Below are positions 6,297 through 27,762 of a DNA stretch of 49,213 nt, piece by piece; within the stretch, counting starts at the first letter, position 1; every line of letters begins with the position of its first letter. The stretch comes from Planctomycetota bacterium. Its GTDB lineage: Bacteria > Planctomycetota > Phycisphaerae > SM23-33. The DNA lies in assembly GCA_012729725.1 (NCBI GenBank), contig JAAYCO010000048.1, forward strand, positions 1-49,213, written 5' to 3'. A model generated the notes under the pieces. The model worked only from the letters and a program-made list of their open reading frames with translations, had not been told where the DNA came from and did not search any database. The position numbers were made by a program, and so were the translations under genes.

Positions 6297-6724
6297 AGTT
6301 AGCGCCTCCCATTGAAGAAATGTCCCGCACCATCGACGTTTTGGTTAGTGCACAAGCCCAGACAGAGCCTGTATGCCGCATTTGCCCGCCCTATGTGCTC
6401 GCTAAACATCAGCTTTTGCTCACCGTTTCTGCCGTAGTTCCGGTTAGCAGCATGTACACCAGAGGCCACTTGTGGAGGCCGTTTTCGTGAGTGCCTCCAG
6501 ATATGATCTACTACTATGCTACCACAATCTGCGAATTACGCCAGTGTCAAACGCCAAATGTCAGACGCCGCAGGCCAAGTCTCTCTCGCCGAGTAATGCC
6601 AGAATGCCCTAACCAACCCGCCACGCATCTGTCCAATATCCACACCTGCCAACGTGTAGACTGCCGGGCGGGAAGGTCTTACAATCCGCTCATCAGTTCC
6701 GTGGCGGCAAAGGAGTTTGGATAC

Positions 6725-9700
6725 ATGGGCGAAAAGGTTGATATTCGTGTGGATGGTTACCATCTGACCGATGCCATCGGCACGGGCGGCATGGGCAGCG
6801 TGTTCCGGGCCACGGTCGAGGCTGACGACAAGCCGGTGGCCAGGGGCACAACCGTCGCCGTCAAATTGCTTCATCCGCATCTGCGGACGATAGAGGAATT
6901 CGTCAAGCGGTTCCATCGCGAGGCCCGTCTGGCTGCGTCCATCGATCACCCCAACGTCGTGCGCGTGCTCGACGAAGGCTGCGAAGACCGCAAGCACTAT
7001 ATCGTTATGGAGATGGCTGAGGGCCTCAAGCTCAACGACCTCATCGGCGACAACCAGCCGCTAAGCCCCCAGCAGACCATCGAGGTGATGAACCAGGTGT
7101 GCGACGCCCTCGGGGCCGCTGCCGCCGTGGCAGACCCCGACCAACCCGGCCGCGTGCGGAATCTCGTCCATCGCGACATCAAGCCCGACAACATCATGAT
7201 CCAGCCGCTGGATCGCAAACAGTACGACACAATGACCCGCACGGGCGACAAGACCGCCCTGGCCAACATCCGCGTCAAGCTGCTGGACTTCGGCCTGGCC
7301 AAAGACGTCAAGGCCCTCTCGACCATCCTCTCACAGACCGGCCAGTCGCTGGGCACGCCCGCTTACATGTCACCCGAGCAGTGTCGCGGCGACGACGTTG
7401 ACGGCAGAAGCGACATCTACTCACTGGGCGTGGTTGCGTATCACATGATCACCGGCACCCAGCCGTTCGCCGGGCCAACAACGGTTGCATACGCCACGCA
7501 GCACGCCGAAGAGATTCCGCCTGACATCCTTGGCCGCAATCCGCTGTGCCCCAAAAACCTTGCCGATTGCATCTATCGCTGCCTGGCGAAAGACCCCAAG
7601 GATCGCTACGCCGAGGCGGCTGAGCTTCAAGCCGATCTGGTGCGGGTGTCGAAGGGCCAAACCGTCGCCAAGGTGTACAAGTTCAAGAAGAAAGGCAGCT
7701 TCAGCCATCGAAAGGTGGCGGCGATTATGGCGGCAACCGCCGTTATCCTGCTGCTTGCCGTGGCGGGCGGCTGGTTTTTCCTTACCGATCGCGCCAAGGC
7801 GGACTTTGCCGAGGCGGTGCGTCAGGCTGATGTGCTGATAGCAGCCCAGGACTACGCCGGGGCCAGCTCGAAGCTTCAGCAGGCGATAGCGGATTTTCCA
7901 AACCGTGCCAACAAGGCCCAACTGACAGCACCCGCCCACGATCGGCTGAGGGATATCGCTGCTAAGGCAGCCGAGCAGGAATCCGCCCGGATGGTCTCAC
8001 AGGAGCAGCAGCGCCGTCGCGAACACGAAGCCGCCGCCGTTGCAGCCGTCGCGGCCATCAAGGCAAAAACCGCGGCCGCGGATTATCAAGGCGCCATAGA
8101 CGCCGCCAACGCAGCACTCACCACCTTTGCCGACACGCCCGCGGGGGCCCAACTGCCCGATCTTCTGGCGGGGGCCACGGAAAAACTTCGGGGCCGGCAG
8201 GAGGCGGACAAGGCACTCGCTGAAGCCCAGCGTAAGCAGCAGGAAGAGCAGGCCCGCATCGAGCGAGATCGACAGACAGCCGAGGCCGCCGCCCGCCGCG
8301 AGCGATTTGTTCGCTACCGTGATGAGGGGCAGGTCGCCTATAACCGTGCCGTTGCTTCCGGCAGCCGATCTGATTATCTCACCGCGCGAGCATCGTTTGA
8401 GGCCGCCATCGCTGAGCAGCAAGACGCCGAGGTTCAGCGTTTATTGCAGCAGTGCATCGACCGCACAACGCGGCATCGCATCGCGGTGGCGGACTTTTCC
8501 GTCACCGGGGATGTGGGCATTGCCGATGCTGGCAAGGCGGTTGGCGAGTTGCTGCTGAGTCGCTTCGGGGCCGACCGTTACCAGCTTGTGGAGCGTTCGC
8601 ACCTGGCTGCCATCTTGGCTGAGCACGATCTGACGATGGCGGAGATTGTCTCCAATCCCGCCCGCCTTCGCGGCAAGAACCTCGCCGGCGTGCGGTATAT
8701 CGCGCTTGGTAGCGTGGTTCGCCTGGGCAACATCGCCATCTCTGCTCGGGTGGTTGACGTGACTTCGGGCGACATTATCCAGACGGCTGAGGTATCTGCC
8801 GAAGATGCTCGGGGCCTTCAGAATGCACTGGCCGAACTCGCCCGCATCCTCCAGATGACGCCGGAGGAGAAGAAGGCGTATCTGGACTCGGCGCTGTATC
8901 CCCAGCTTCTGGCAGAGGCTCGTTCCAAGCGTCAGGCCCGCCAATATGACGATGCCATATCCATTTATCAGCGGGTGCTGGCCATTCGTTCAACGGTGGA
9001 CATTCAGGATGAGCTTTCAGCCTGCCGCCGCGACAAGGATGCATGGGAGCGGCTGCAGGCAGATGAGCGTGAGCGCCAGCGGCAGGAGGCCCAGCGTGCG
9101 AAGGAACGCCAGGAAGCCGATCGCGAGCGTGATCAACAATTCGCATCGCTGGTTCAACAGGCCCGCGCCATTGCCGATACGCTGCCTGCTGACCGCAGCC
9201 GCCTGACGGAATCGCAGAAGTCGCAGGCTCAGCGCGGGGTTTCATTGACGGATCAGGCCTTGGCTATCAAGCCCGGCGACGCCACCGCTACGGCCCTGAA
9301 GTCCCGCCTGGCGGGATATCTTGGGCCGGAGAAGGAACTCACACTCGATCTCGGCGGCGGTGTTAGCATGAAGCTGGTGCTCATCCCCGCCGGTCGCTTC
9401 ATGATGGGCAGCCCCTCCAACGAGAAGGATCGTGACGGCGATGAAGGCCCCCAACGCCAGGTGACGATCTCCAAGCCGTTCTACATGGGCGTGTACGAGG
9501 TGACACAGGCTCAGTATGAGGCAGTAATGGGCAATAATCCCAGTCATTTCAAAGGGGCGAACAATCCGGTGGAGCAGGTTTCGTGGAACGACGCCACAGA
9601 ATTCTGCCGTCGTTTGAGTCAGCGAACGGGCAAGACTGTCCGTCTTCCTACCGAGGCCGAGTGGGAATACGCCTGCCGTGCTGGCACGACTACCCGTTTC

Positions 9701-10051
9701 TATTATGGTGACGATCCCGACTATCGCCAGCTTGGCGAATATGCGTGGTATAACACAAACAGCAATAGTCGGACTCAGCCTGTCGGCCAGAAGCGGCCCA
9801 ACGCCTTTGGCCTGTACGATATGCACGGCAATGTCTACGAGTGGTGCAGCGATTGGTTTGCGGATTCATACGCGAATGCGAATAATACTAACCCCACAGG
9901 ACCGGCTTCGGGCAGCCGCCGCGTGCTGCGCGGCGGTTCGTGGATCTGCTATCCGCGCCTCTGCCGCTCGGCGCTCCGCTACTGGTTCTCCCCGGTCCAC
10001 CGGGGCAGCTACTACGGGTTTCGGGTCGTGGTGGTTTCCGGCGTGGACTGA
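6725..10051 (+). CDS. Hanks-type Ser/Thr protein kinase - TM - coiled coil - CsgG-like - FGE-sulfatase/C-type lectin fold protein; DGR target
   Basis: GTGGMGSVFRA, VAVKLL, HRDIKPDN, DFGLAK, GTPAYMSPEQ kinase motifs; TM AAIMAATAVILLLAVAGGWFFL; RHRIAVADFSV...VGELLLSRF...VERSHLAAIL CsgG-like; GGGVSMKLVLIPAGRFMMGSPSNEKDRDGDEGPQRQVTISKPFYMGVYEVTQAQYEAVMG...RLPTEAEWEYACRAG...GLYDMHGNVYEWCSDWF FGE domain. Start chosen at ATG 6725 (MGEKVDIRVDGY). Confidence 0.93.
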   Translation: MGEKVDIRVDGYHLTDAIGTGGMGSVFRATVEADDKPVARGTTVAVKLLHPHLRTIEEFVKRFHREARLAASIDHPNVVRVLDEGCEDRKHYIVMEMAEGLKLNDLIGDNQPLSPQQTIEVMNQVCDALGAAAAVADPDQPGRVRNLVHRDIKPDNIMIQPLDRKQYDTMTRTGDKTALANIRVKLLDFGLAKDVKALSTILSQTGQSLGTPAYMSPEQCRGDDVDGRSDIYSLGVVAYHMITGTQPFAGPTTVAYATQHAEEIPPDILGRNPLCPKNLADCIYRCLAKDPKDRYAEAAELQADLVRVSKGQTVAKVYKFKKKGSFSHRKVAAIMAATAVILLLAVAGGWFFLTDRAKADFAEAVRQADVLIAAQDYAGASSKLQQAIADFPNRANKAQLTAPAHDRLRDIAAKAAEQESARMVSQEQQRRREHEAAAVAAVAAIKAKTAAADYQGAIDAANAALTTFADTPAGAQLPDLLAGATEKLRGRQEADKALAEAQRKQQEEQARIERDRQTAEAAARRERFVRYRDEGQVAYNRAVASGSRSDYLTARASFEAAIAEQQDAEVQRLLQQCIDRTTRHRIAVADFSVTGDVGIADAGKAVGELLLSRFGADRYQLVERSHLAAILAEHDLTMAEIVSNPARLRGKNLAGVRYIALGSVVRLGNIAISARVVDVTSGDIIQTAEVSAEDARGLQNALAELARILQMTPEEKKAYLDSALYPQLLAEARSKRQARQYDDAISIYQRVLAIRSTVDIQDELSACRRDKDAWERLQADERERQRQEAQRAKERQEADRERDQQFASLVQQARAIADTLPADRSRLTESQKSQAQRGVSLTDQALAIKPGDATATALKSRLAGYLGPEKELTLDLGGGVSMKLVLIPAGRFMMGSPSNEKDRDGDEGPQRQVTISKPFYMGVYEVTQAQYEAVMGNNPSHFKGANNPVEQVSWNDATEFCRRLSQRTGKTVRLPTEAEWEYACRAGTTTRFYYGDDPDYRQLGEYAWYNTNSNSRTQPVGQKRPNAFGLYDMHGNVYEWCSDWFADSYANANNTNPTGPASGSRRVLRGGSWICYPRLCRSALRYWFSPVHRGSYYGFRVVVVSGVD
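9914..10046 (+). repeat. DGR variable repeat (VR) at the 3' end of the kinase/FGE gene
   Basis: RVLRGGSW-ICYPRLCRSALRYWFSPVHRGSYY-GFRV: FGE consensus with substitutions concentrated in NNC/NNT codons (ATC TGC TAT CTC CTC TAC TTC GTC CAC AGC TAC TAC), as expected from AAC codons in a template; A-free 3' stretch 10016-10046 as candidate IMH. Confidence 0.85.
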
Positions 10052-10103
10052 TTTTTATTACACTTTGCCCTTTGTTCTTTTACCCTTTGCCTTTCCTGGG
10101 GTT

Positions 10104-10140
10104 CCAAGGGGCGAAGCCCCTTGGCCGCCCGACGGGCGGC
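10104..10140 (+). promoter_or_regulatory. Tandem hairpins just downstream of VR (DGR hairpin/cruciform candidate)
   Basis: CCAAGGGGC-GAA-GCCCCTTGG (9-bp stem) followed by GCCGCCC-GAC-GGGCGGC (7-bp stem). Confidence 0.65.
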
Positions 10141-10163
10141 GCAGGTGTAGAAATGGTTTCTTC

Positions 10164-10508
10164 ATGGCGCAGGAACTGAAGGTTATTCAGGATTTCTACG
10201 ACTTCATGCTGTGGATAATTCACCACACTGAGAAGTTCCCGCGCCATCACCGCTACAGCCTTGGGTTGGCAATTGAAAACCGCCTCCAGAAAATCCTTGA
10301 TCTGTTGCTTCGGGCGAAGTTCTCGCCGAACAAGGCCGGATTCCTCAACGACGCCAACATGGAGCTTGAGGTGCTGCGATTTCAGGTCCGCCTGGCGAAG
10401 GATCTCAAGGCTATGCCGATCAAAAGCCACGGCCATGCAGCCACGGTAATGCATGGCATCGGCGCTCAGATCGGCGGATGGCTATCAAGCAAGGTTGTTA
10501 AATCATGA
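10164..10508 (+). CDS. avd: DGR accessory variability determinant (Avd-like four-helix bundle)
   Basis: 114 aa helical protein (MAQELKVIQDFYDFMLWIIHHTEKFPRHHRYSLGLAIENRLQKILDLLLRAKF) overlapping the RT start. Confidence 0.88.
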   Translation: MAQELKVIQDFYDFMLWIIHHTEKFPRHHRYSLGLAIENRLQKILDLLLRAKFSPNKAGFLNDANMELEVLRFQVRLAKDLKAMPIKSHGHAATVMHGIGAQIGGWLSSKVVKS

Positions 10509-11695
10509 AAAGATACGGCAATCTATGGGATGCTCTTGTGTCGTGGGAGAACCTGCTGCTGGCCGCTCGCAAGGCCCGCCGCGGCAAGCGCGACCGCTCG
10601 GCCGTGCAAAGGTTCGAATTCGATCTTGAGGCCAATCTTCTCGCCCTTCAGAAAGAAATGATGAACGGGTTCTACAGCCCAGGCGACTTCCGGACCCATT
10701 GGATCAGCCGTCCCAAACCACGGTTGATTTCTGCGGCCCCTTATCGAGACCGTGTAGTGCATCACGCTCTGATGAACGTGCTGGAGCCGATCCTGGAGCG
10801 GCACTTCCACCCGCACAGCTATGCCTGCAGGAGTGGCAAGGGTACTCATTCCGCCGCGGACAGATTGCAGAGACTTCTTAAACACAACCGGTATTTCTTG
10901 CAGTGCGACATTCAGAAATACTTCCCCAGCATCGATCACGAAATACTTAAAGGGATGATCCGGCGGCTGATTAAAGACAACCGCATATTGTGGCTGGCGG
11001 ATCTTGTCGTAGACCACTCGAATGAGCAGGAATCGAGATGCGAATACTTTTCTGGTGATGATCTCTTTGCCCCTTACCGGCGTCGGCGCGGGCTTCCGAT
11101 CGGCAACCTTACCAGTCAGTGGCTGGCGAACTGGTACCTGACGCCACTGGACCATTTCGTGACAAGCAAACTTGGGCTGGGCGCATACGTCCGCTACTGC
11201 GACGACTTTATCTTGTGCCACAACAGGCGCTCGGCGTTAATGGAGGCAGCCGGAGCCATTCGTCAGTTCCTGTCGGGCCTTCGCTTGCGGCTGCACGAAC
11301 GCAAGCTTCAGATACAGCCCTCCGGCCTGGGCGCAACGTTTGTGGGCTTCCGCCTGTGGTCCTCGCACCGGCTCGTCCGCAAGGCAAATGTTCGCCAGTT
11401 CCGTAGGCGGGTGCGGTGGATGCGACGAGCATACGCCAATGGGATAATCCAGTGGACTGACATCAAGCCGCGTCTTGCCAGTTGGATTGGACACGCGCGG
11501 CAAGCTGATAGTGAGAGGCTGATCCGCCGCATCGCGAGCGAATGGGTCTTCACGAGGGACAGCGCCGAAGAGCAACCGCGTGCTGCGAGGGGGAAAAAGG
11601 GGTCAGGAACCTTTTTCGATTGGCCATTCTGGCTATATCGTCATGCCAAGAAGTTGCCGAGTAACCACTGGTGGCGTGGAGCATCATGTGCCTAA
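10505..11695 (+). CDS. DGR-type reverse transcriptase
   Basis: KPRLISAAPYRDRVVHHALMNVLEPI...FLQCDIQKYFPSIDHEIL...RGLPIGNLTSQWLANWYLTPLDHFV...YVRYCDDF; IGNLTSQ motif typical of DGR RTs. Confidence 0.93.
   Translation: MKRYGNLWDALVSWENLLLAARKARRGKRDRSAVQRFEFDLEANLLALQKEMMNGFYSPGDFRTHWISRPKPRLISAAPYRDRVVHHALMNVLEPILERHFHPHSYACRSGKGTHSAADRLQRLLKHNRYFLQCDIQKYFPSIDHEILKGMIRRLIKDNRILWLADLVVDHSNEQESRCEYFSGDDLFAPYRRRRGLPIGNLTSQWLANWYLTPLDHFVTSKLGLGAYVRYCDDFILCHNRRSALMEAAGAIRQFLSGLRLRLHERKLQIQPSGLGATFVGFRLWSSHRLVRKANVRQFRRRVRWMRRAYANGIIQWTDIKPRLASWIGHARQADSERLIRRIASEWVFTRDSAEEQPRAARGKKGSGTFFDWPFWLYRHAKKLPSNHWWRGASCA
11571..11593 (+). repeat. Probable remnant of DGR template repeat (TR)
   Basis: AGCAACCGCGTGCTGCGAGGGGG vs VR 9914-9936 AGCCGCCGCGTGCTGCGCGGCGG: 19/23 identical, 3 of 4 mismatches at TR adenines, same orientation, immediately 3' of the RT core. 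Confidence 0.6.
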
Positions 11696-11887
11696 CCGGT
11701 CACATGCACGTCTAAGACTGGTTGAATAGCAGGCGGATTATCGTGCTTTCTTCAGTCCGTGGCGGGAGAGGCCCACGAGCGGGTTGCAATGCGGCCCTGC
11801 TCCCTTTAACCCCCTGACGCCAAACAGCCCAAAGACCAAACCTCCTGCCGCCGATCGCGGAATCCGGCGTGTTTCGGTGTGGGGGGG
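11594..11887 (+). repeat. Repeat unit A of ~294-bp tandem repeat with GAAAAAGG..CCTTTTTC palindrome
   Basis: Near-identical to 11888-12180; starts AAAAAGGGGTCAGGAACCTTTTTCGA. Confidence 0.9.
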
Positions 11888-12180
11888 AAAAAGGGGTCAG
11901 GAACCTTTTTCGAGTGGACATTCTGGCTATATCGTCATGCCAAGAAGTTGCCGAGTAACCACTGGTGGCGTGGAGCATCATGTGCCTAACCGGTCACATG
12001 CACGTCTGGCAGTGGTGGAATAGCAGGCGGATTATCGTGCTTTCTTCAGTCCGTGGCGGCAGAGGCCCACGAGCGGGTTGCAATGCGGCCCTGCTCCCTT
12101 TAACCCCCTGACACCAAACAGCACAAAGTCCCAACTTCCTGCCGCCGATCGCGGAATCGGCGCGTTTCGGGATGTGCGGG
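11888..12180 (+). repeat. Repeat unit B of ~294-bp tandem repeat
   Basis: Starts AAAAAGGGGTCAGGAACCTTTTTCGA; same order and text as unit A with scattered differences. Confidence 0.9.
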
Positions 12181-15863: not shown

Positions 15864-16199
15864 ATGATCGACAAGAACACGTCATCACGGCAGGGCGAGG
15901 CGGTGAGTCGGCAGTCGCCGGCGGTCTCTCGCTGGCGTCAGGCGGGCGGTCGAAAACCTATTCCGCCCAAGCTCTACAGGATCGGCGAGGTCGTCGAGTA
16001 CTCTGGGATGAGTCGTCAGACGATCCACAATTACACCATCATGGGACTTTTGCCCGAAACGCAATGGACGCAAGGCGGGCATCGGTTATATGACCAGAGC
16101 GTCTTCGGCCGGCTCGACAGGATAGCCCGGCTCAAGGCGCAGCGCAAGTCGATGCAATACATCAGGGAGTTCTTCGTAAGGTTCGATAGCCGAAAGTGA
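15864..16199 (+). CDS. MerR-type helix-turn-helix regulator
   Basis: LYRIGEVVEYSGMSRQTIHNYTIMGLLPETQWTQGGHRLYDQSVFGRLDRIARLKAQ. Confidence 0.85.
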   Translation: MIDKNTSSRQGEAVSRQSPAVSRWRQAGGRKPIPPKLYRIGEVVEYSGMSRQTIHNYTIMGLLPETQWTQGGHRLYDQSVFGRLDRIARLKAQRKSMQYIREFFVRFDSRK

Positions 16200-16230: not shown

Positions 16231-17934
16231 ATGAATGAACTGAAAAAACATCTCGCCGCCCTCCGCGCGTGGGCGCTGGGGCTTGGCATTGGCGGGCGCG
16301 CGGCCCTTGCAGTGTCGGCGCTTTTGCTTCTTGCCGGATGCCTATGGTTGGCGCTGTCGGGCGACAAGACGCAGAAGGTCGTCCTGCCCGTGGACGTTGC
16401 CGCCGCCGATGTCGCCGAGGCGCTGAAGGCCATTCAAGCCCAGGGCATAGACGCTTCCGTCGACGGGGGCAGGATTCACGTTCCTCCCGGCGCTCAGGAA
16501 TCCGCGAAGATGGCGCTTGTCTCGGCGGGCATTGGCTCGCCTTCGTCGTTTGAACAGGCGCTGGCGCATGAGGGCCTGTGGTCTTCCGCATCTCAGAATC
16601 ACAAGCGATGGCTGGCCGCCAAGATGACGGCGCTGTCTCGCGGCATTGGCAAGTTCCCCGGCGTCAAGCGCGCGGTGGTTCTGCTGGAAGAACCCGCGCA
16701 GCGTTCGCTGGGTTCCGTTGGCGCCTCGGCGAGCGTGCAGGTGGAGCTATCAACGCCGCTGGCGATGACTCGCGATGTTCAGCACGCCATTGCCGATCTT
16801 GTCGCCGGAAGCGTCTCGGGCCTCAAGCCCCAGGATGTTCGGATCGTCGATACCGCCGGCAGAAGCTACCGGCTTGACGAGGAAGACCGTCCCGTTGGTC
16901 CCGAGCAGCGGCTGGTCGCCGCCAGACTGGAGATGCTCGAGCAGGCGCGATCGGTGCTATCGCAAATTCCCGACGTCCTGCTGCACGTGCAGATGCGGAT
17001 GCGGGACGACAAGTGCGAGTGCGAGTCGCTGTGGGCATCGATACCCTTGAGCTACATCCAGGCGGTGGCTGCACAGAGAAAGAGCGACGTTCAGTCGTCG
17101 GCGGAGGTTTGCCTGAACAAGACGCGGGCGGCCCTGGCTGGCGCGCTGGGCGCCGACCCGCGGATCATCAGGGTTGATTGGCATTACGACGTCGGGTCTT
17201 CGTCCCCGGCTGAGGCGCAATGGAAGGCCCATCTGTCGTGGGCGCTGCCGCCTGTCGGCGGCGTGATCGTCGTGGCATGCATCGCCGTTTTTCTCTTCAA
17301 ACGCCGCCGAGCCCATTCGAGGCATCCCCTCGACGTGCTGGAACTGGCCAGCCCCAACGACCTGTGCGAAATTCTGTCTCTTGAGCACCCGCAGACAATC
17401 GCGGCAGTGCTTGGCCGGCTTTCCCCGGCGCGGCGCGAAGCGGTTCTCGAATCGATGGACGAGGCCGCGCGTATGGAAGTGGAGCGTCGGCTGGACTCGA
17501 ACGTGGCCCCTGATCGGCGCGTTCTGGACGAGGTTCACACCGCCATCGCGGCCCGCCTTGCGCAGTTTGTCTCTCGCCGGCAGGATGTGCAGGCCCGAGA
17601 GGCGCCTTTCGCCGCCGGTGCGGGCGGCGAGGTTGCCGACAACGCCCTTGATTTTGACGATCTGCTGGCGATGGACGATTCGACTCTGGGCGAGGCGCTG
17701 GCTGATCTTGACACTCACTGCCTTGCAATCGCCCTTCGCACCGCCGACGCCAGGCTTGCGCAGAAGATAGTCGCCTGCATGCCGTTGGATCAGGCCCAGG
17801 AATTGCGCGAGCGGATGGACAGCATCGGCCCGGTGCGTCTGAGCGACGTCGAAGCCGCACAGAGACAGGTAGTTCGTGCAATCCGCACACCCGCCGGCAG
17901 GTACGTTTCGCATGCCGGAGAGAGGATAGCGTGA
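16231..17934 (+). CDS. fliF: Flagellar FliF (MS ring) - FliG (middle and C-terminal domains) fusion protein
   Basis: FliF-like N-terminal part with two TMs, then FliG-M (LSLEHPQTIAAVLGRLSPARREAVLESM) and FliG-C (FDDLLAMDDSTLGEALADLDTHCLAIALRTADARLAQKIVACM...SIGPVRLSDVEAAQRQVV) in one ORF. Confidence 0.88.
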   Translation: MNELKKHLAALRAWALGLGIGGRAALAVSALLLLAGCLWLALSGDKTQKVVLPVDVAAADVAEALKAIQAQGIDASVDGGRIHVPPGAQESAKMALVSAGIGSPSSFEQALAHEGLWSSASQNHKRWLAAKMTALSRGIGKFPGVKRAVVLLEEPAQRSLGSVGASASVQVELSTPLAMTRDVQHAIADLVAGSVSGLKPQDVRIVDTAGRSYRLDEEDRPVGPEQRLVAARLEMLEQARSVLSQIPDVLLHVQMRMRDDKCECESLWASIPLSYIQAVAAQRKSDVQSSAEVCLNKTRAALAGALGADPRIIRVDWHYDVGSSSPAEAQWKAHLSWALPPVGGVIVVACIAVFLFKRRRAHSRHPLDVLELASPNDLCEILSLEHPQTIAAVLGRLSPARREAVLESMDEAARMEVERRLDSNVAPDRRVLDEVHTAIAARLAQFVSRRQDVQAREAPFAAGAGGEVADNALDFDDLLAMDDSTLGEALADLDTHCLAIALRTADARLAQKIVACMPLDQAQELRERMDSIGPVRLSDVEAAQRQVVRAIRTPAGRYVSHAGERIA

Positions 17935-17941
17935 GGTGAGC

Positions 17942-18673
17942 ATGAAACGCGTAATCAAAATGCAGGACGCCGGCGAAATGTTGGGCGACGCGGCAGTCCC
18001 GCTTGAGCTTGCCGACGTCGCGGCGGAGGCAAGGGACATTATCTCTCGCGCGCGTTCGGCCGCCCAGAAGATCGTCAACGACGCGCAGGAGCAGGCCAGG
18101 CAGATCCAACAACTTGCCGCCGACGACGCCAGGTCTGCCGGTTTTGCAAAGGGACGAGAAGAAGGCTTTGCTCAGGGCCTCGCCGCGGGGCGGAAGGAAA
18201 TCGAGGCGGAGCTTAAGACCCAGTCGGTGGAACTGACACAGCTTGCCGGCAGGATTCTGGGCGAACTGGCGGGCGCCAGAGAAGAACTGCTGCGAGAGGC
18301 GTCCGGCGAGCTTCTGAACCTTGCCATAGACATCGCCCGCAAGGTTGTAGGCACAGTTGCGATACGCGACATATCGGCGGCCCGCGCGAATCTGGCCAAG
18401 GCTCTTGAGCTTGCAGACCCCGCCGGCCAAGTGGTTGTGCGAGTGAACCCACGGCAACTGGAACAATTAAGTCTGCGGCTTGACGGCCTGACGGAAAGCC
18501 TGTGCGTTCGCGGCACGGTAAAGCTTGTCGCCGACGAGCGCATCGCCCCAGGCGGCGTGAAGCTGGGCACGCGCCAGGGCGAAATAGACGCCACGATTGA
18601 CACGCAGATCAGGAATGTGGTTGAGGCGCTCGTCGGTCCGGGCTTCGGCCCGCTGCCACAGGAGGCGTCTTGA
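17942..18673 (+). CDS. fliH: FliH-like flagellar assembly protein
   Basis: Coiled-coil N-terminus; AIDIARKVVG...VVVRVNPRQLEQL...VKLVADERIAPGGVKLGTRQGEIDATIDTQI; between fliF and fliI. Confidence 0.85.
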   Translation: MKRVIKMQDAGEMLGDAAVPLELADVAAEARDIISRARSAAQKIVNDAQEQARQIQQLAADDARSAGFAKGREEGFAQGLAAGRKEIEAELKTQSVELTQLAGRILGELAGAREELLREASGELLNLAIDIARKVVGTVAIRDISAARANLAKALELADPAGQVVVRVNPRQLEQLSLRLDGLTESLCVRGTVKLVADERIAPGGVKLGTRQGEIDATIDTQIRNVVEALVGPGFGPLPQEAS

Positions 18674-20016
18674 ATTCGCTTGAATCATACAGGCGGATCG
18701 TTCGCAACGTCGTGCCCGTCGGGCTGACGGGTCGCGTTCACGGCGTTCGCGGCCTGACGGTTACGGTGGGCGATTTTCCCGCGCCAGTCGGCGCCTCGTG
18801 CCGCATTGTCCGCACGGGCAGGGGAGTAGACGCCCGCGTCGTTGGCTTCACCGGAAGGCACACGCTGGTCATGCCGATCGGGCAGTGCGCAGGCATATGC
18901 AAGGGCGACAGGGTGATATTCACATCCGGCGAGCAATCGCTTGGAGTTGGCAAGTCGATGCTGGGGCGGATTATCGACGGCGTGGGCAGGCCCATAGACG
19001 GCAAGGGCGAGATCGTCTGCGATGCCAGAGCGGCGATATGGCCCGCGCCGCTGGGTCCGATGCAGCGCCGCAGGATAGACCAGCCGCTGGCGACCGGCAT
19101 TCGCGCGATCGACGGCCTGTTGACCGTTGGCAAGGGCCAGCGAATGGGAATATTCAGCGGCTCGGGCGTTGGAAAAAGCGTCATGCTTGGCATGATCGGC
19201 AGGTACACGGCCGCCGATGTTACGGTTATTGCGCTTGTGGGCGAACGAGGCAGGGAAGTTCGTGATTTTGTTGAACGCGATCTTGGCGAAGAAGGGCTTG
19301 CTCGAAGCGTTATCGTTGTTTCAACAAGCGAAGATCCGCCGCTGCTTCGAGTTCAGGCGGCTGCGGTGGCGGCAGCGGTGGCGGAATTCTTCCGAGATCG
19401 CGGCCTTGACGTGCTTCTGCTGATGGACAGTCTAAGCAGGCTTGCCTCCGCGCAGCGCACCGTCGCGCTGGCTGCCGGCGAACCCCCGGCCACGCGCGGA
19501 TACCCGCCAAGCGTATTCAACCTGCTGCCCGAGCTGCTTGAACGCAGCGGAAGGACCGAGCGGGGATCCATAACCGCCTTCTACACCGTGCTGGTTGAGG
19601 GTGACGATTTCTCCGAGCCCGTCGCCGACGCCGTGCGCAGCGTAACGGATGGACACATCTGCCTTAACAGGCAGTTGGCCAACCAGGGCCACTACCCGGC
19701 TGTGGACGTGCTGGCCAGCATCAGCAGGGTGATGATAGATGTTGCAAGCCAGCCGCAGCTCGCCGCCGCCAGGGAGATTCAGGGCCTGATGGCGGCTCAT
19801 GCAGAGATACAGGATCTCATCAGCGTTGGGGCATACAAGACCGGCGCAAACCCGCGAGCCGATCTGGCGATTGCGGCAATGCCGCTGGTGCGCGATTTTC
19901 TGGTGCAATCAATCAGCGAGAGCTCGCCCCTCGATCAGACGATGAGCAGGCTTGCCGAATTACGTGGAACCATCGAACGAATCAGCAAGGATCTGCAACG
20001 CGGATCGCAAGGATGA
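18670..20016 (+). CDS. fliI: Flagellar export ATPase FliI
   Basis: GKGQRMGIFSGSGVGKSVMLGMI, ALVGERGREVRDF, LLLMDSLSRLASAQR. Confidence 0.96.
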   Translation: MNSLESYRRIVRNVVPVGLTGRVHGVRGLTVTVGDFPAPVGASCRIVRTGRGVDARVVGFTGRHTLVMPIGQCAGICKGDRVIFTSGEQSLGVGKSMLGRIIDGVGRPIDGKGEIVCDARAAIWPAPLGPMQRRRIDQPLATGIRAIDGLLTVGKGQRMGIFSGSGVGKSVMLGMIGRYTAADVTVIALVGERGREVRDFVERDLGEEGLARSVIVVSTSEDPPLLRVQAAAVAAAVAEFFRDRGLDVLLLMDSLSRLASAQRTVALAAGEPPATRGYPPSVFNLLPELLERSGRTERGSITAFYTVLVEGDDFSEPVADAVRSVTDGHICLNRQLANQGHYPAVDVLASISRVMIDVASQPQLAAAREIQGLMAAHAEIQDLISVGAYKTGANPRADLAIAAMPLVRDFLVQSISESSPLDQTMSRLAELRGTIERISKDLQRGSQG

Positions 20017-20510
20017 CAAACATGGTTTCAAAACAGGAAAAACGCCTTGGAGTAATGCTCAGGCCGATGCGTCACAGCGAAGAGGTTGCCCGGCAGGACT
20101 TCGCTCGCGCCACTTGCAGGGCGCAGGAGTATCTTGATCAGGCGCTTCAACTCGAAGCCGAACTGCGATGCCAGCACGCGGCCGCGGGCAGAAGCCTGCG
20201 CAACGGCGACGAGTTCTCAACCGACGGCTACCGGCATGCCGTCGCGACCATTCAGAACAAGCTCTCGCGCATCATGCGTCTGGCCGATCAGGCGCAGGAG
20301 CAGGTCGAGAAATGCCGCATCGAGCTGATCGAGTCAATGGGCAGGCGCAAGGCATTCGGAAAAATGCTGGAGAGGATTTCTCACGATCGCCGGCTCCGCG
20401 CGGATCAAAAGGAAAGCGCCGAACTGGATGACGTTCACGCGGCGTCAACGGCATGGCGGCGAGAGAGCTTGGACTACAGCCAGGCGGATGCAGTGACGGT
20501 GGAGGCGTAA
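20013..20510 (+). CDS. fliJ: FliJ-like coiled-coil protein
   Basis: Coiled-coil-rich 165 aa ORF immediately after fliI. Confidence 0.65.
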   Translation: MTNMVSKQEKRLGVMLRPMRHSEEVARQDFARATCRAQEYLDQALQLEAELRCQHAAAGRSLRNGDEFSTDGYRHAVATIQNKLSRIMRLADQAQEQVEKCRIELIESMGRRKAFGKMLERISHDRRLRADQKESAELDDVHAASTAWRRESLDYSQADAVTVEA

Positions 20511-20755
20511 TGATAAGGCCACGCAACACCGATCGTATGCGGATCAACCTTGGCAGGCGGTGCATCAGCGTCTGCCAGATGGCCTCGCTGAAACCAGGCG
20601 CCATCATCGAACTGGACAAGCCTGCCGGCGACCACGTGGAGGTGTTTCTCGGATCGCGCCTGCATGCCAAAGGCAATCTGGTGTGCATCGACGGCAAGCT
20701 GTGCGTGCGGGTCTGTCAGGCGGTGGACGCCTCAGCAGCGACGGTGCAGACATGA
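20510..20755 (+). CDS. Minimal SpoA-domain (FliN/FliM C-terminal-like) protein
   Basis: 81 aa: RMRINLGRRCISVCQMASLKPGAIIELDKPAGDHVEVFLGSRLHAKGNLVCIDGKLCVRV; TAATG overlap with upstream gene. Confidence 0.85.
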   Translation: MIRPRNTDRMRINLGRRCISVCQMASLKPGAIIELDKPAGDHVEVFLGSRLHAKGNLVCIDGKLCVRVCQAVDASAATVQT

Positions 20756-21267
20756 TCAGGAGCATGCGACTATTCGCCATGCTCGCATGCATCGGCCTGA
20801 CGGTCGCCGCCGCATCTGCTCAATCGACGCAGCCGGGCGGCCCTTCGACCGGCGAGTCTTTGGAGCAGAAACCTGTTGGCGGCATCGAACAGAACAAGGT
20901 GGGCGAATCCTCGCAATCCGGGCAGTTGATGCAGTGGCTTCAAAGCATTGCCGCACTGGGCGTGGTTGTGGGCGTGATATTCCTGCTGCGGTTCGTGCTT
21001 CGCAGGATGGTTCGCACCGGCGGCGTTGGGTTCGCTCGCCGCCAAGGCCCGCTCGATGTGCTTCACCAGGTTTCCGCCGGGGCAGGGCGGCAGTTGCTGC
21101 TGGTGCGCCTCGGTCGGCGACTGCTGCTGATAGGAAGCACAAGCGGCGGCCTGCGAACGCTGGCCGAGGTGGACGATGAGATGCAGGCGGCGGAAATGAT
21201 GCGTCAACTCGGTCTTGACGCGCAAGCCAAACCCGGCCGAGACGCAGAAAAATCGGAGGAAGCATGA
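20752..21267 (+). CDS. fliO: FliO-like protein
   Basis: Signal/TM, then ...QGPLDVLHQVSAGAGRQLLLVRLGRRLLLIGSTSGGLRTLAEV; directly upstream of fliP. Confidence 0.85.
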   Translation: MIRSMRLFAMLACIGLTVAAASAQSTQPGGPSTGESLEQKPVGGIEQNKVGESSQSGQLMQWLQSIAALGVVVGVIFLLRFVLRRMVRTGGVGFARRQGPLDVLHQVSAGAGRQLLLVRLGRRLLLIGSTSGGLRTLAEVDDEMQAAEMMRQLGLDAQAKPGRDAEKSEEA

Positions 21268-21908
21268 ATTCCTCCATGCCGGCGATGATCACGTGGATAT
21301 CGATGGGCCTGGTGGCGACGGTGGCCCTTCTTGCCACTTGTTTCACGCGGGTGATTGTCGTGCTGGGCCTGCTCAAGCAGGCGATAGGCGCGCAGCAGCC
21401 CCCGCCGCAGGTGGTGCTGGCGATGTCGCTGCTGATTACCGTTGTGGTTATGGCGCCAGTTTACACGCAGGTGTACTCGCAGGCGATCGAGCCGTACTCA
21501 GCCGGCAAGCTGGACATGTCCTCGGCGGTGTCAGCCGGCGAAGGCCCGGTCAGAGCGTTCATGATTCGACAGATCGAGAGCACCGCTAACCGCGGCGACG
21601 TTCGCCTGTTTCTGCCGAAGGAACTCGCCCAGAAAGATGACCTTGCCTGGAGCGAAGTCGCCACGCCGGCGCTGGTGGCGGGTTTCGTCGTCAGCGAGTT
21701 GAAAATCGCGTTCATAATCGGCGTGCAGATATTCCTGCCATTCGTGGTGATAGACCTGCTGGTCGCGACGATTCTTACTTCAATGGGCATGCTGATGCTG
21801 CCGCCAGTGCTTATATCGTTGCCGCTGAAGCTGCTGATGTTCGTTCTGGCGGACGGCTGGCACAGGGTTATCGGCACGCTGATGCAGAGCATTGGATGGA
21901 GCTCATGA
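21264..21908 (+). CDS. fliP: Flagellar export protein FliP
   Basis: TCFTRVIVVLGLLKQAIGAQQPPPQVVLAMSL...FVVSELKIAFIIGVQIFLPFVVIDL. Confidence 0.96.
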   Translation: MNSSMPAMITWISMGLVATVALLATCFTRVIVVLGLLKQAIGAQQPPPQVVLAMSLLITVVVMAPVYTQVYSQAIEPYSAGKLDMSSAVSAGEGPVRAFMIRQIESTANRGDVRLFLPKELAQKDDLAWSEVATPALVAGFVVSELKIAFIIGVQIFLPFVVIDLLVATILTSMGMLMLPPVLISLPLKLLMFVLADGWHRVIGTLMQSIGWSS

Positions 21909-22165
21909 TGGACGTTAACTTCGCGGTGGACCTGGGCCGCGAGGCCCTTATTCTGACGCTGACGGTGGCGGCGCCGGCCCTCATTGCCGGCGTTATCGTG
22001 GCTCTTATCGTGGCGATTGTGCAGGCGGCGACGGGAATACAGGAACAGACCATCGGCCTGCTTCCCAAAATCGCGGCAATGCTTGCAGCTGCTTTGGCGG
22101 CAGGTCCGTGGGCTATGGGCAGACTGGTCGAATTCGGAGAGAGGATGTTCTCGCTTTTACCGTGA
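21905..22165 (+). CDS. fliQ: Flagellar export protein FliQ
   Basis: LIAGVIVALIVAIVQAATGIQEQTIGLLPKIAAML. Confidence 0.94.
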   Translation: MMDVNFAVDLGREALILTLTVAAPALIAGVIVALIVAIVQAATGIQEQTIGLLPKIAAMLAAALAAGPWAMGRLVEFGERMFSLLP

Positions 22166-22169
22166 TCCA

Positions 22170-22919
22170 ATGATTGCAGATGCGACAAATATACTTCTTG
22201 CGGCTGGCAGATTCAGCGGGCTGGCGTTTACCGCGCCGCTGCTTTCACATGCCGGTGTGGGAAGATTTGTTCGCGTATTGGCGGCGATTGCGCTGGCCAT
22301 AGGTCTGGGGGGCGAAGGCGGCCCTTCGGCCAGACTGTATGAACCGTTCGGGCTTGCAATTGCGACTGCCGTTGAATTCGCCATCGGGGCGGCGGTTGGA
22401 CTGGCGGCCCGGTTGGCTTTTGTCGGCATTGACCTGGCGGCCGAGCAGATCAGCGTACAGATGGGCATATCTCTCGGTCAGGTGTACTCGAACGACCAGC
22501 AGGATTCCTCGCCGCTTGTAACGCTGTTCGGATTGATTGCCGCGCTTGTCTTCATCTTCATTGGCGGAGTTGACGATCTTGTCTGGGCGGTTGGCGAAAG
22601 CCTTCGGCTGCTGCCGGTGGGCGTAACCGTTGGCCCGTCTTCGCTGATTCCGTCGCTTATTGCGGGCCTGAGCGGCGCGTTCGTGCTTGCGCTCAAGATC
22701 GCCGCCGGGGCGCTTGCGGCGATGCTGATTGCATCGGCGGGGCTGGGAATACTTCAAAGAATGCTGCCGCAGGCGCACATCCTGACGACGGGTTTGCCCG
22801 TTCGTTCCGCCCTTGGCCTGCTTGCGGCGGCAGGAGGGCTTAAGGCGCTTGGATGGGCGCTTGAGGCGTATTGGCCCGCGGTCCGGCCAATGCTTCCGGC
22901 AGTGTGGAAAGGCGCGTAA
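22170..22919 (+). CDS. fliR: Flagellar export protein FliR
   Basis: FliR-type multi-TM protein with ISVQMGISLGQVYSNDQQDSSPLVTLFGLIAALVFI; fliPQR order. Confidence 0.93.
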   Translation: MIADATNILLAAGRFSGLAFTAPLLSHAGVGRFVRVLAAIALAIGLGGEGGPSARLYEPFGLAIATAVEFAIGAAVGLAARLAFVGIDLAAEQISVQMGISLGQVYSNDQQDSSPLVTLFGLIAALVFIFIGGVDDLVWAVGESLRLLPVGVTVGPSSLIPSLIAGLSGAFVLALKIAAGALAAMLIASAGLGILQRMLPQAHILTTGLPVRSALGLLAAAGGLKALGWALEAYWPAVRPMLPAVWKGA

Positions 22920-22922
22920 ACG

Positions 22923-23660
22923 TTGAGCGACGACGCACACAGCGACGACAAGCAGTTTGAACCGACGCCGTACAAGCTTCAGCAGGCTCACCAGGACGGG
23001 CTTGCCGCCAGAAGCTCGGATCTCGCGGCGGCGGCGGGAATGCTGTTGTCCCTGGCGGTTGTCACTTTCGCCGGCCCCGTCCTGATGCGTGAGTTGCAGT
23101 TGATGACCGGCGAGATGCTTGGCGGAATCTCCGCAAACGCAATCAGGATGCCCGGCGCGCTGCCGATAGCCAGGTTGGGCATGCTCGTGGCGCTGGTTGG
23201 CGTCGGTGCGATTGTCGGGGGCGTCGCGGCTGCGGTGATCATGGGCAACGCAGCCTTCAACAGCGCCCGGCTGAGATTCAACTGGGACAAGATCAACCCA
23301 GGCGCGGGTCTGTCGCGAATGGTTGGCAGGGCGGCGGGCGTGCGCGCAGTGTTTGCTGCATGCAAGATATTGTTGGTTGGCGGCGTAATGCTTGACGCGC
23401 TTGTTCGCTCGTCGGTTGGGCTTGCGAGCCTGGGCGGCGTTTCGCCGCGTGAAATGGCCCTATCGGCATGGACGCTGCTGCTTTGGGCTGCGTGGAAGAT
23501 TGCCGGCGGGCTTGCAATTCTTGCGATTGCGGACGCCATTTATCAGCGATGGGAATTCCGCCAGGGCTTGAAAATGACGCGTCGGGAGCTTATGGAAGAG
23601 CTTAAACGCACTGAAGGCGATGTACGGTTTCGCAAACGCCGCATGACGCGGGTTACTTAG
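22923..23660 (+). CDS. flhB: Truncated FlhB (membrane domain only)
   Basis: DDKQFEPTPYKLQQAHQDG...ADAIYQRWEFRQGLKMTRRELMEELKRTEGDVRFRKRRMTRVT*; no NPTH/FlhBC domain. Confidence 0.9.
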   Translation: MSDDAHSDDKQFEPTPYKLQQAHQDGLAARSSDLAAAAGMLLSLAVVTFAGPVLMRELQLMTGEMLGGISANAIRMPGALPIARLGMLVALVGVGAIVGGVAAAVIMGNAAFNSARLRFNWDKINPGAGLSRMVGRAAGVRAVFAACKILLVGGVMLDALVRSSVGLASLGGVSPREMALSAWTLLLWAAWKIAGGLAILAIADAIYQRWEFRQGLKMTRRELMEELKRTEGDVRFRKRRMTRVT

Positions 23661-23682
23661 CGAGCCGAAGGACGAGAAGTTG

Positions 23683-25773
23683 ATGGCAAGGATGCCGGAC
23701 ATTCTCAGCAGGGCCAGCGGCGCGGTGGCGGCGCACAGGGGGCTGTTTCTGCCGCTTGCGGCGATCGGCCTGATACTCGTGATCATCATTCCGCTGCCGG
23801 CGATGGTCATGGACATTCTTCTGTGCGCCAACCTCGCCATCTCGGCAGTGATTCTGCTGACCGCGCTTCAGGTTTCGACGCCGCTGGAGTTCAGCGCCTT
23901 CCCAACTTTGCTTCTGCTGGCCACGCTGTGGCGGCTCGTGTTGAACGTCGCAAGCACGCGACTCATTCTTACAGCCGGCAGAAACGGCCTGCAGGATGCG
24001 CAGTTGGGAGCGGGACATGTTATCAACGCCTTCGGCGGGTTCGTGCCCTCAGGTTCGCTGGCCGTCGGGTTGATACTCTTCGGGATTATCGTTCTCGTGC
24101 AGTTCATGGTGATTACCAAGGGCGCATCACGCATCAGCGAAGTGGCTGCGAGATTCACCCTTGACGCCATGCCCGGCAGACAGATGGCGATAGACGCCGA
24201 ACTGGCGTCGGGGCGAATAGAGGCTGCCCAGGCGTCGCGGCAGCGGGCGGAAATCGCGCGCAGTGCCGATTTCTACGGCGCGATGGACGGCGCATCGAAG
24301 TTCCTTCGCGGGGATGCGCTTGCGGGGCTTGTCATCACCGTGGTGAACCTGCTTGGCGGCATGTACGTGGGCATGGTCGAATACGGATGGTCGTGGAGCG
24401 ATACTTCGGCCGTCTTCTCCAGGCTGACCGTGGGCGATGGGCTTGTAACGCAGATACCCGCGTTTCTTCTGTCGATCTCGGCAGCGCTTCTGGTAAGCAG
24501 GAGCGGCCGGAGCGAGGACCTTGGCAGGCAGGTGATATCACAGCTTGCGGCGCGGCCGGTTGTGCTGGCAATTGCGGCGGGATTCCTTGGCATGCTGCTG
24601 TTCACGCAATTGCCCAAGCTGCCGCTGCTGATGCTTGGTGGCGGCCTGGCCGGACTGGCGTACACCGTTCGAGGCAGGGCGCGGAACCGAGCAGCCTCGA
24701 AGCCCGCGTCCTGCGCCGCCATAGAACGACATGAATCCCAGGATGCGGTCAAGATGCCCGCGGTGGATCCTGTGCGGCTTGATCTTGGGTTCGCACTCGT
24801 CCGACTTGCCGACAAGGCACGCGGCGGCGACTTGACCGACAGGATCGCGCAGATGCGAATGACGATTGCCGAGGAGCTGGGCCTGATGCTCGGCCCGATT
24901 CGCATCAGGGACGACATGCGGCTGGAATCGCACGAATACGCCATATTCATTCGGGGTGCGAAAATCGCCTCCGGCAGGCTGTATCCAAACCAGCGGCTGG
25001 CGGTGGGTGGCGATTTGAAGGAAGGCGATCTTCACGGCAGAGCAACCACCGAGCCGGTGTTCGGCACGCCGGCGGTGTGGATCAGCCCGTCGCAAAGCGA
25101 AAAGGCCATCGCCTTGAAGTGTATGCTTGTCGAGCCCGCTGCCGTGCTGATAGCCCATCTTGGAGACATCCTGCGAAGTCACGCGCCCCAGTTGCTTGCG
25201 CGCAAGCAGGTGGCAGACATGCTGGAGACGCTGAAAGTCTCGGCGCCGGGTCTTGTGCAGGAGATAACGCAGCGGCTTTCTGTCGGCGACGTGCAGAAGG
25301 TGCTTGGGAACCTGCTGTCCGAGCGGGTGAGCATCCGCGACCTCGAGATGATACTCGAAGCGGCAGGCGACGCCGTAGCAGACGGCGTCCAGGGCCACGA
25401 GGCGATCACAGAGCGGGTTCGCTCGTCGCTTGGTCGCGCGCTATGCCAGCAGTACGCCTCCGCCGACGGCAGGCTGTGGTGCGTGAGCCTCGATGCTTCG
25501 CTTGAGGATTCGCTGTGCCGCTACGTGGGACACGGCAAGAGCGGGGCGATACCGCCCGAAGTGAACAGGAAGGTCGCTCGCACTGTCGCGTCGAGGCTGG
25601 AGGATTTGCGCCGCTCGGGCCGGCAGGCGGTTGTGCTTTGCTCGCCGCCGCTTAGACCCGCCATCAGGCGCATGCTTGCCGACATATCGCCGAAATCGAC
25701 GGTGCTTGCTTATAACGAAGTCAATTCAGTGGAAGTTAATTCCGTCGCGACCGTGGGAGCCGATGAATCATGA
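23683..25773 (+). CDS. flhA: Flagellar export protein FlhA
   Basis: PLEFSAFPTLLLLATLWRLVLNVASTRLIL...FVVITKGA-like FMVITKGASRISEVAARFTLDAMPGRQMAIDAEL. Confidence 0.97.
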   Translation: MARMPDILSRASGAVAAHRGLFLPLAAIGLILVIIIPLPAMVMDILLCANLAISAVILLTALQVSTPLEFSAFPTLLLLATLWRLVLNVASTRLILTAGRNGLQDAQLGAGHVINAFGGFVPSGSLAVGLILFGIIVLVQFMVITKGASRISEVAARFTLDAMPGRQMAIDAELASGRIEAAQASRQRAEIARSADFYGAMDGASKFLRGDALAGLVITVVNLLGGMYVGMVEYGWSWSDTSAVFSRLTVGDGLVTQIPAFLLSISAALLVSRSGRSEDLGRQVISQLAARPVVLAIAAGFLGMLLFTQLPKLPLLMLGGGLAGLAYTVRGRARNRAASKPASCAAIERHESQDAVKMPAVDPVRLDLGFALVRLADKARGGDLTDRIAQMRMTIAEELGLMLGPIRIRDDMRLESHEYAIFIRGAKIASGRLYPNQRLAVGGDLKEGDLHGRATTEPVFGTPAVWISPSQSEKAIALKCMLVEPAAVLIAHLGDILRSHAPQLLARKQVADMLETLKVSAPGLVQEITQRLSVGDVQKVLGNLLSERVSIRDLEMILEAAGDAVADGVQGHEAITERVRSSLGRALCQQYASADGRLWCVSLDASLEDSLCRYVGHGKSGAIPPEVNRKVARTVASRLEDLRRSGRQAVVLCSPPLRPAIRRMLADISPKSTVLAYNEVNSVEVNSVATVGADES

Positions 25774-26927
25774 TCGAAACGCCAGTAAAGACTTATCAGG
25801 CAACGACGATGGCTCAAGCCCTGGCGCAGGTGAAGCGCGACCTGGGGCGCGACGCCATTATTGTCCGCACGCGGAGCTACCGCAAAGGCCGGCTGTGGGG
25901 CCTGTTCGGCGGCAGAAACATTTGGGAAGTAAGCGCAACCGCCAATGCTCGCCCGCCAGTTCAGTCCGGCAGCTACAGCCACGACTATGCCCCGGTCGTC
26001 AAGCAGCCGGCCGCAGTGCCGCCAACCGATCAGCCCGCCGCCTCGGCGGAGATGGACACCCAGGTGGGGCACATCCGGCGGATGGTCGAGGCGCTGCTGA
26101 CGATGCAATCGCAGTCTGTCTCGCACACTCCGACCGAGCTTCAGGCCGTGCGCGATCACCTGCTGAAGCAGGAAGTGCAGGAGGAAATCGTCACGGATGT
26201 CGTTCATCAGCTTTCGCAGGATCTCACCGGAAGGCAGATGGAAGACCCTCGCGTCCTTGGCGAAAGCCTGGTAAACCGCATCAGCGAGAGAATACTCACC
26301 CAACAGAGCGGCCAACCCGCCGTCGAAGGTTGCAGGATATCCGCCCTGATCGGCCCGACGGGCGTGGGCAAGACAACGACAATCGCCAAGCTGGCCGCGA
26401 ATCACAAGCTGCGCGAAGGCCGGCGCGTCGGCATGATCACCATCGACACGTATCGAATCGCGGCCGTTGACCAGCTTAAGATCTACGCCGAGATAATAGA
26501 CGTTCCTCTGCACGTGGTTCTGACGGCGGGCGAGTTGAAGGCCGCGATTGATTCAATGCGCGACTACGACGTGGTGTTGATCGACACCGCCGGGCGCAGC
26601 CAGTACGACCGACTCAGGCTCAGTCAACTGTCGGGCTTCATGCGAGCCGCCCAGCCGCACGATGTTCACCTGGTGATGGCCGCCACGGCCGGACGGGCCG
26701 CAATGAGCAGCACGCTGGAGCGGTTCGTGCAATTGGGCGCCAACAGCGTTATAGTGACCAAGCTCGACGAGGCAACCGCCTGCGGTAGCGTGCTTAACAT
26801 CGCAGCCGCCGGCAAGTTGCCAATCAGTTTCGTGACGACGGGCCAGGATGTTCCGGACGATATTCAACCTGCCGACGCGCGGCGTCTGGCCAAGTGCATA
26901 GTAGAAGGCAATCTGAATGTCGGATGA
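25770..26927 (+). CDS. flhF: FlhF SRP-like GTPase
   Basis: ALIGPTGVGKTTTIAKLAANH...ITIDTYRIAAVDQLKIYAEI...LIDTAGRSQYD...TKLDEA. Confidence 0.95.
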   Translation: MIETPVKTYQATTMAQALAQVKRDLGRDAIIVRTRSYRKGRLWGLFGGRNIWEVSATANARPPVQSGSYSHDYAPVVKQPAAVPPTDQPAASAEMDTQVGHIRRMVEALLTMQSQSVSHTPTELQAVRDHLLKQEVQEEIVTDVVHQLSQDLTGRQMEDPRVLGESLVNRISERILTQQSGQPAVEGCRISALIGPTGVGKTTTIAKLAANHKLREGRRVGMITIDTYRIAAVDQLKIYAEIIDVPLHVVLTAGELKAAIDSMRDYDVVLIDTAGRSQYDRLRLSQLSGFMRAAQPHDVHLVMAATAGRAAMSSTLERFVQLGANSVIVTKLDEATACGSVLNIAAAGKLPISFVTTGQDVPDDIQPADARRLAKCIVEGNLNVG

Positions 26928-27762
26928 TCAGGCTACCAAACTTCGTCGCTTGATGCACAAGGTGCGGCAGACACGCACCATCGCCGTCGCCAGCGGAAAA
27001 GGCGGCGTGGGCAAGAGCAACATCGCGCTGAACCTGTCCATTCTGCTTTCGGCGGCAGGAAACCGCGTGGCGCTTGTCGACGCCGATCTGGGGCTGGCGA
27101 ACCTCGATGTCCTGCTGGACGTGGATGTGCGGGCGAATCTTTCGCACGTCATCGCGGGCAGCAGAAAGCTTGAGGATGTCGTGGTCGATCTGCCCTGCGG
27201 CGTGCAATTTGTGCCAGGCGCCAGCGGCATCGCACAACTGGCGAATCTTTCGGAGTTTCAGCGGGCGGCGCTGCTTGATCAGCTCGCATCTCTCGAAACA
27301 GACAACGACCTCATCGTCGTGGACTGCGGCGCGGGCATAGGCAGAGACGTGCTGCAAATGGTCGCCGGAAGCGATAACGCCCTGATAGTGGCCAACCCCG
27401 AACCCCCGGCCATTACCGACGCCTACGCGCTTATCAAGGTGCTCAAGAGGCACGGTTACACCGGAACGATAAGCCTTCTGGTGAACATGGCGGGGGACAG
27501 GCAGGAGGCCAGGGCAACCTTCCAGCGAATCGCCGGGGTCGCCAGGCAGTTCCTGGACGTGCGGGTGATCGACGCCGGACACGTGCTTGCCGACCAGAAG
27601 GTGCGAGACGCTGTTCGCCGCCGCCAGCCCTTCGTGCTTGAATACCCCAGATGCCAGGCCAGCAGGTGTCTTGCTGCCTTGGCTAACAAACTTTGTCAGG
27701 GAAGCTGGCTGGTGGGGCAGAAGGAAGGCTTCTTCCAGAGAGTCGCAAACTGGTTCGGATAA
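26917..27762 (+). CDS. flhG: FlhG/MinD-family ATPase
   Basis: IAVASGKGGVGKSNIALNLSILLSAAGNRVALVDADLGLANLDVLL. Confidence 0.95.
   Translation: MSDDQATKLRRLMHKVRQTRTIAVASGKGGVGKSNIALNLSILLSAAGNRVALVDADLGLANLDVLLDVDVRANLSHVIAGSRKLEDVVVDLPCGVQFVPGASGIAQLANLSEFQRAALLDQLASLETDNDLIVVDCGAGIGRDVLQMVAGSDNALIVANPEPPAITDAYALIKVLKRHGYTGTISLLVNMAGDRQEARATFQRIAGVARQFLDVRVIDAGHVLADQKVRDAVRRRQPFVLEYPRCQASRCLAALANKLCQGSWLVGQKEGFFQRVANWFG

Follow-up and report, generated by a model that had tools for sequence, protein, structure and literature searches.

A single open reading frame of 567 residues joins the ring-building part of FliF to the middle and C-terminal domains of FliG in the window, by which we mean the whole 49,213-nucleotide stretch of planctomycete DNA analyzed here. 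The fused gene lies in an operon that is a second flagellar set of its genome, and its product is probably the base on which a second, non-rotating type III export complex of flagellar origin is built, with no rod, hook, or filament. We found no published case of a natural FliF–FliG fusion in the open-license literature, where laboratory fusions are already known. The gene and its parts, all on the + strand, are as follows.

16231–17934, +, fliFG fusion gene, 567 aa in a single ORF (Pfam, AlphaFold, and PDB neighbors)
16366–16866, +, FliF ring-building part (YscJ_FliF, RBM1–RBM2; Pfam 2.5e-24, high-confidence fold)
17251–17313, +, second TM helix, residues 341–361, running straight into the FliG part (model helix, hydrophobic stretch)
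17353–17574, +, FliG middle domain with the EHPQ motif (Pfam 3e-9, motif counts)
17629–17889, +, FliG C-terminal domain, in which the equivalents of R281, D288, and D289 lack their usual charges (Pfam 1e-23, alignment)

Matches of the window protein to YscJ_FliF (residues 46–212), FliG_M (residues 375–448), and FliG_C (residues 467–553) each exceeded the curated Pfam cut-off. In an AlphaFold model built with both FliF and FliG rows (mean pLDDT 80), the RBM1, RBM2, FliG M, and FliG C folds were confident, and helices spanning residues 20–42 and 341–361 fit two TM segments with confident folds on both sides. Residues 247–340, the expected place of RBM3 and the β-collar, were poorly modeled, and no YscJ_FliF_C match was detected by Pfam in any of 18 fused proteins. 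The PDB neighbors of the model were FliF/EscJ and FliG chains, and a profile of the 18 fused proteins matched solved structures of FliG (1lkv, 3e-65) and FliF (6scn, 8e-23) as well as both ends of 8z4d, the chain of an engineered Vibrio FliF–FliG fusion. These results bear out the initial annotation, which had read the frame as a FliF part with two TMs leading into the middle and C-terminal domains of FliG and had noted that the FliG N-terminal domain is missing. Pfam found no separate FliG_N domain in the fused proteins, and what has been lost is exactly the interface by which the FliF tail docks on FliG_N. A hidden FliG_N was rejected, as the FliG_N matches of relatives overlapped FliG_M and represent one stretch only. 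About half or more of the ARM_C segment of FliG is lost in the window copy and in six relatives, and most relatives keep ARM_C. The proposal that fusion fixes FliF and FliG at 1:1 adds little, because the MS-ring and C-ring have already been reported to share 34-fold symmetry (PMC10128058).

A fused frame carrying FliG_C, 513–697 residues long, was present in 19 of 35 genomes of the window genome's family, spanning 15 genera, and the remaining 16 genomes had no fusion. The FliF and FliG domains shared a single frame in all 18 aligned members; these come from independent assemblies, and thus a lost stop or start between two genes, the artifact that the initial annotation had considered, is excluded. 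Sequencing error as the source was also rejected on the basis of the same fusion in 15 genera, and the architecture is therefore a natural one. The survey of planctomycetes that had been suggested recovered the architecture in this family and nowhere else, either among other families in a class survey (299 genomes) or in a phylum survey (395 genomes) run with a strict cut-off that could miss very divergent cases. A Planctomycetota MAG, UR.bin180, contains the same fused locus and operon (L058). The fusion arose once. Among close relatives, dN/dS was 0.12–0.32 for fliFG, compared with 0.05–0.44 across all compared genes, and fliFG is under purifying selection.

The operon of the window reads merR-fliFG-fliH-fliI-fliJ-short fliN-fliO-fliP-fliQ-fliR-truncated flhB-flhA-flhF-flhG, with a sigma-factor gene as downstream neighbor. 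Genes other than fliFG are listed below.

15864–16199, +, MerR-type regulator gene directly upstream of fliFG (Pfam MerR_1 7e-12)
17936–18673, +, fliH (Pfam FliH 2.5e-17)
18670–20016, +, fliI, export ATPase with the P-loop GSGVGKS present (Pfam ATP-synt_ab 8e-87, T3SS_ATPase_C 6e-21)
20013–20510, +, fliJ-like gene (Pfam FliJ 2e-5, slightly below cut-off)
20510–20755, +, short fliN-like gene with a SpoA domain only (Pfam FliMN_C 8e-15)
20752–21267, +, fliO (Pfam FliO 2e-9)
21264–21908, +, fliP (Pfam FliP 1e-59)
21908–22165, +, fliQ (Pfam Bac_export_3 4e-23)
22149–22919, +, fliR, start approximate (Pfam Bac_export_1 6.5e-37)
22923–23660, +, flhB, membrane part only, 245 aa without the NPTH autocleavage domain (profile positions 2–233 of 335; stop codon read)
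23680–25773, +, flhA (Pfam FHIPEP 2e-220)
25770–26927, +, flhF, SRP-type GTPase (Pfam SRP54 8e-48)
26917–27762, +, flhG, MinD-type ATPase (Pfam ParA/CbiA matches)
27985–28809, +, FliA/WhiG-like sigma-factor gene (Pfam sigma-70 regions 2–4)

The export-apparatus proteins FliP, FliQ, FliR, FlhA, and the membrane part of FlhB all exceeded their Pfam cut-offs in the window, which also encodes the FliH/FliI/FliJ ATPase complex, with FliJ as a weak match. Operon order was largely kept across relatives. The merR gene immediately preceded fliFG in 17 of 19 (the exceptions being L045, whose contig starts there, and L051), and flhF and flhG were kept in most fused members; fliH, fliI, fliJ, and fliN were not found between fliFG and fliO in five relatives. 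Beside the operon, the relatives' neighborhoods contained neither axial genes (rod, hook, or filament) nor mot genes, and no secretin, needle (SctF), or SctD gene stood out within the operon or on either side of it. Conserved axial substrates were likewise absent next to the operon, where the only recurring neighbor was a TPR-repeat lipoprotein, encoded near it in eight genomes (L040, at 17410–18543, L042, L053, L054, L041, L044, L055, and L023); this lipoprotein is a possible partner of the fused system. The FliA/WhiG-like sigma factor, which also occurs in family members without the fused system, was rejected as a dedicated regulator and probably does not belong to that system alone.

Upstream of the operon, positions 6491–11695 of the window look, when read by eye, like a diversity-generating retroelement, with a Ser/Thr kinase bearing a C-terminal FGE/sulfatase-like domain (6491–10051), an Avd-like frame (within 9678–10508), and a reverse transcriptase (10505–11695, motif YVRYCDDF); ungapped comparison revealed no template repeat. 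At 11584–12158, a 281-nt unit occurs twice in direct orientation (95% identity, spacing 294 nt), spanning the last part of the reverse transcriptase frame and adjoining DNA with no obvious gene.

The separate fliG for which the initial annotation had proposed a search does exist in the window genome. Contig C49 encodes a FliG of 327 aa and its own FliF, together with fliH, fliI, fliJ, motA/motB, fliL, fliM, and fliN, and contig C194 encodes fliO-P-Q-R, a full flhB (355 aa), flhA (the second FlhA of the genome), and a sigma factor; we take these gene names from similarity and from our reading of the translations. The window operon is therefore a second set beside this canonical one. Ordinary flagellar FliG was encoded in 12 of the 19 fused genomes, the window genome included. 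The other seven (G057, G204, G105, G200, G184, G212, and G208) had the fused system only: none of the seven had a separate FliG, none had a MotB plug domain, and none had Flg_bbr_C rod/hook proteins in a search that covers the FlgC/E/F/G/K type only. These genomes are drafts, 68–91% complete, in which a single absence is weak evidence. The family's ordinary FliG is itself odd. In the C49 copy (L001, 850–1833) and 14 relatives (L150–L163), GPVRL is replaced, for example by SSPKP, and most copies have V in place of K264 but retain R281 and the acidic pair.

We compared 20 fused with 80 ordinary FliG sequences by alignment at R281, D288, and D289 (E. coli numbering), the stator-facing torque residues, and at the EHPQ motif, which binds FliM. 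Position 281 was arginine in 4/20 fused proteins versus 76/80 ordinary ones, position 288 was acidic in 4/20 versus 79/80, and position 289 was acidic in 7/20 versus 78/80. By contrast, the glutamate of EHPQ was present in 18/20 fused and 80/80 ordinary proteins and its glutamine in 17/20 fused proteins; the arginine of GPVR was invariant (20/20). In the fused proteins, the stator-facing charges are degraded and the FliM-binding motif is largely kept. Because ordinary FliG in other families of the class retains the charges at 281, 288, and 289, they were lost en route to the present fused proteins. The idea of the initial annotation that the fusion works within a motor is unsupported, given this degradation, the separate fliF–fliG operon, and the fused-only relatives without detected rod/hook or MotB genes.

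The cytoplasmic domain of FlhB is normally important for export. In most fused members, FlhB ends at profile position 225–247 of 335, NPTH is absent even from the two long copies, and a search of the fused-only genomes for a separate FlhB C-domain found none. In flagella, FlhB switches substrate specificity (PMC7064499, PMC3708937), and a machine without the C-domain should be unable to switch by autocleavage. An additional FliM-like SpoA protein of 250–330 aa was encoded in 10/19 fused genomes versus 1/16 other genomes of the family and was not found in the window genome. Its genes (L138–L147) are unlinked to the operon, and their products show a clear SpoA domain alongside a weak FliM domain. 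Where the flank is long enough, an HflX-like gene lies nearby in most of the loci and a CstA-like gene in several, both names being our reading of the translations.

In a FliG tree, the fused proteins formed one clade (100/100) inside the ordinary FliG of the class, and the family's present FliG fell outside this group on a long branch. MAGs labeled Phycisphaerae/Phycisphaerales (L066, L072) sat among the ordinary FliG proteins of the class, which is therefore probably Phycisphaerae. In a FliI tree, the fused clade adjoined planctomycete FliI (100/96), and a quick tree placed the flagellar FliI of the sister family closest to it (SH-aLRT 98). An AU test rejected union of the fused FliI with the family's own flagellar FliI (p-AU 0.0002), and with it, for FliI, the candidate that the fused operon was recently duplicated from the flagellum that the family now has. 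These groupings with the flagella of the class, in trees that include no injectisome ATPase, argue that the ancestor of the fused operon was the native flagellum of this planctomycete class and that the family's present flagellum has another history. Acquisition of the present flagellum by transfer is likely. Reduction of the native flagellum would either have followed the family's switch to a flagellum of another lineage or have overlapped with it.

By homology, FliFG would assemble into a ring in the inner membrane that surrounds the FliPQR–FlhB–FlhA export gate, and this ring would carry its own docking site because the FliG part is covalently joined. A SpoA-type sorting platform, made of the FliN-like protein and, in many relatives, the unlinked FliM-like protein, would dock on the EHPQ face of the middle domain and bring FliH–FliI–FliJ to the gate. 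With the FlhB cytoplasmic domain gone, there would be no autocleavage-driven switch, and the gate may pass one substrate class, most likely into the periplasm. FlhF and FlhG would probably position the complex in the cell. Export is suggested by the retained gate and ATPase. Our analysis identified neither a substrate nor an outer-membrane exit for the fused system, and, as a point against the exporter reading, the ordinary flagellum of the 12 two-system genomes could lend parts. The five members without fliH/I/J/N ahead of fliO and the lack of a FliM-like extra protein in the window genome also count against it.

Borrowing of that kind is central to the idea that FliFG serves as rotor in a second, genuine flagellum whose rod, hook, filament, and stators are lent by the other set. 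Retention of FlhF/FlhG and C-ring-like proteins is in keeping with this idea, as are the presence of ordinary FliG in those 12 genomes and the fact that a Salmonella fusion cut at almost the same places remains able to swim (PMC6445934). However, seven genomes keep the fused system with no rod/hook or MotB genes detected, the residues that would face a stator are degraded, and the FlhB domain responsible for the change from rod/hook to filament substrates is missing. Moreover, most two-system genomes have five or six Flg_bbr_C proteins, as do family members with an ordinary flagellum only, and thus mostly one set irrespective of the fused system. A second rotor is quite improbable.

That the operon is a decaying, functionless relic of the native flagellum would fit its progressive loss, with RBM1, RBM3, ARM_C, FlhB-C, or fliHIJN gone in various lineages, and its absence from 16 family members, but open frames and gene order persist in 15 genera, dN/dS is well below 1, the GPVR arginine is never replaced, and the fused system is retained where other tested flagellar genes are lost; decay is quite improbable on this evidence. 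A membrane scaffold that exports nothing is unlikely, if less so. It might act as a polar landmark through FlhF/FlhG, which most members keep, as a membrane-tube platform, or as a structure like the hat-shaped fT3SS-related complex; hat-shaped inner-membrane structures and a nanotube role of T3SS proteins have been reported in other bacteria (PMC9380563), and loss of the FlhB cytoplasmic domain could also mean that the gate is unused for protein export. Against a scaffold, FliI, FlhA, and FliPQR are conserved under purifying selection, which suggests energized export.

The derivation of secretion machines from flagella has been argued mostly from one old event, the origin of injectisomes. The chances seem to us evenly balanced that the planctomycete system is a second, independent conversion of a flagellum into a non-motile secretion machine, seen partway through: it would have lost rod, hook, filament, and stator, joined the MS-ring covalently to the C-ring, given up the FlhB switch, and persisted as an exporter of one substrate class beside, or without, a replacement flagellum. 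This case would be younger and traceable, as it allows direct comparison of the reduced operon with the present-day flagellum and with the ordinary flagella found in sister families. It would mark the stator face, FliG_N, the β-collar domain, and FlhB-C as dispensable parts of a flagellar base whose gate and FliM/FliN docking face are maintained by selection, and would provide a natural test of the roles of FlhB-C and FliG_N.

Evolution made nearly the same cut as Salmonella geneticists. The Salmonella deletion fusion lacks 56 residues of the FliF tail and 94 of FliG, comprising FliG_N and part of the next helix, and yet the strain still assembles flagella and can swim, though strongly biased toward clockwise rotation (PMC6445934); the ring therefore tolerates such a cut. 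Unlike the planctomycete protein, that fusion is engineered and works inside a flagellum with stators. Full-length engineered fusions (PDB 8z4d; PMC11481574; PMC6079021) also join FliF to FliG, whereas natural FliFG additionally lacks the FliF β-collar, the torque residues, and, in the window copy, part of ARM_C, and is encoded in a separate operon. With the canonical flagellum, the fused system shares FliF RBM1–2, FliG M and C, FliH/I/J, FliO/P/Q/R, FlhA, the FlhB membrane part, and FlhF/G, but it lacks rod, hook, filament, and stator genes, FlhB-C, and FliG_N, and its torque residues are degraded. The chlamydial orthologs of FliF, FliI, and FlhA (PMC2830194) likewise represent a few flagellar export proteins without a known flagellum, but there are about three genes there, in contrast to the almost complete export operon, fused ring protein included, described here. 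The Myxococcales NF-T3SS (Abby and Rocha, 2012; PMC3459982) is similar in being a conserved apparatus without rod, hook, stator, or filament genes; it lacks FlgBCDEK, FliEG, and MotAB and is thought to be functional from its conservation. The Myxococcales system has no FliG and belongs to the NF-T3SS branch, whereas the planctomycete system kept FliG by fusion, retained FliO, FlhF, and FlhG, and has FliI and FliG that follow the flagella of its host class.
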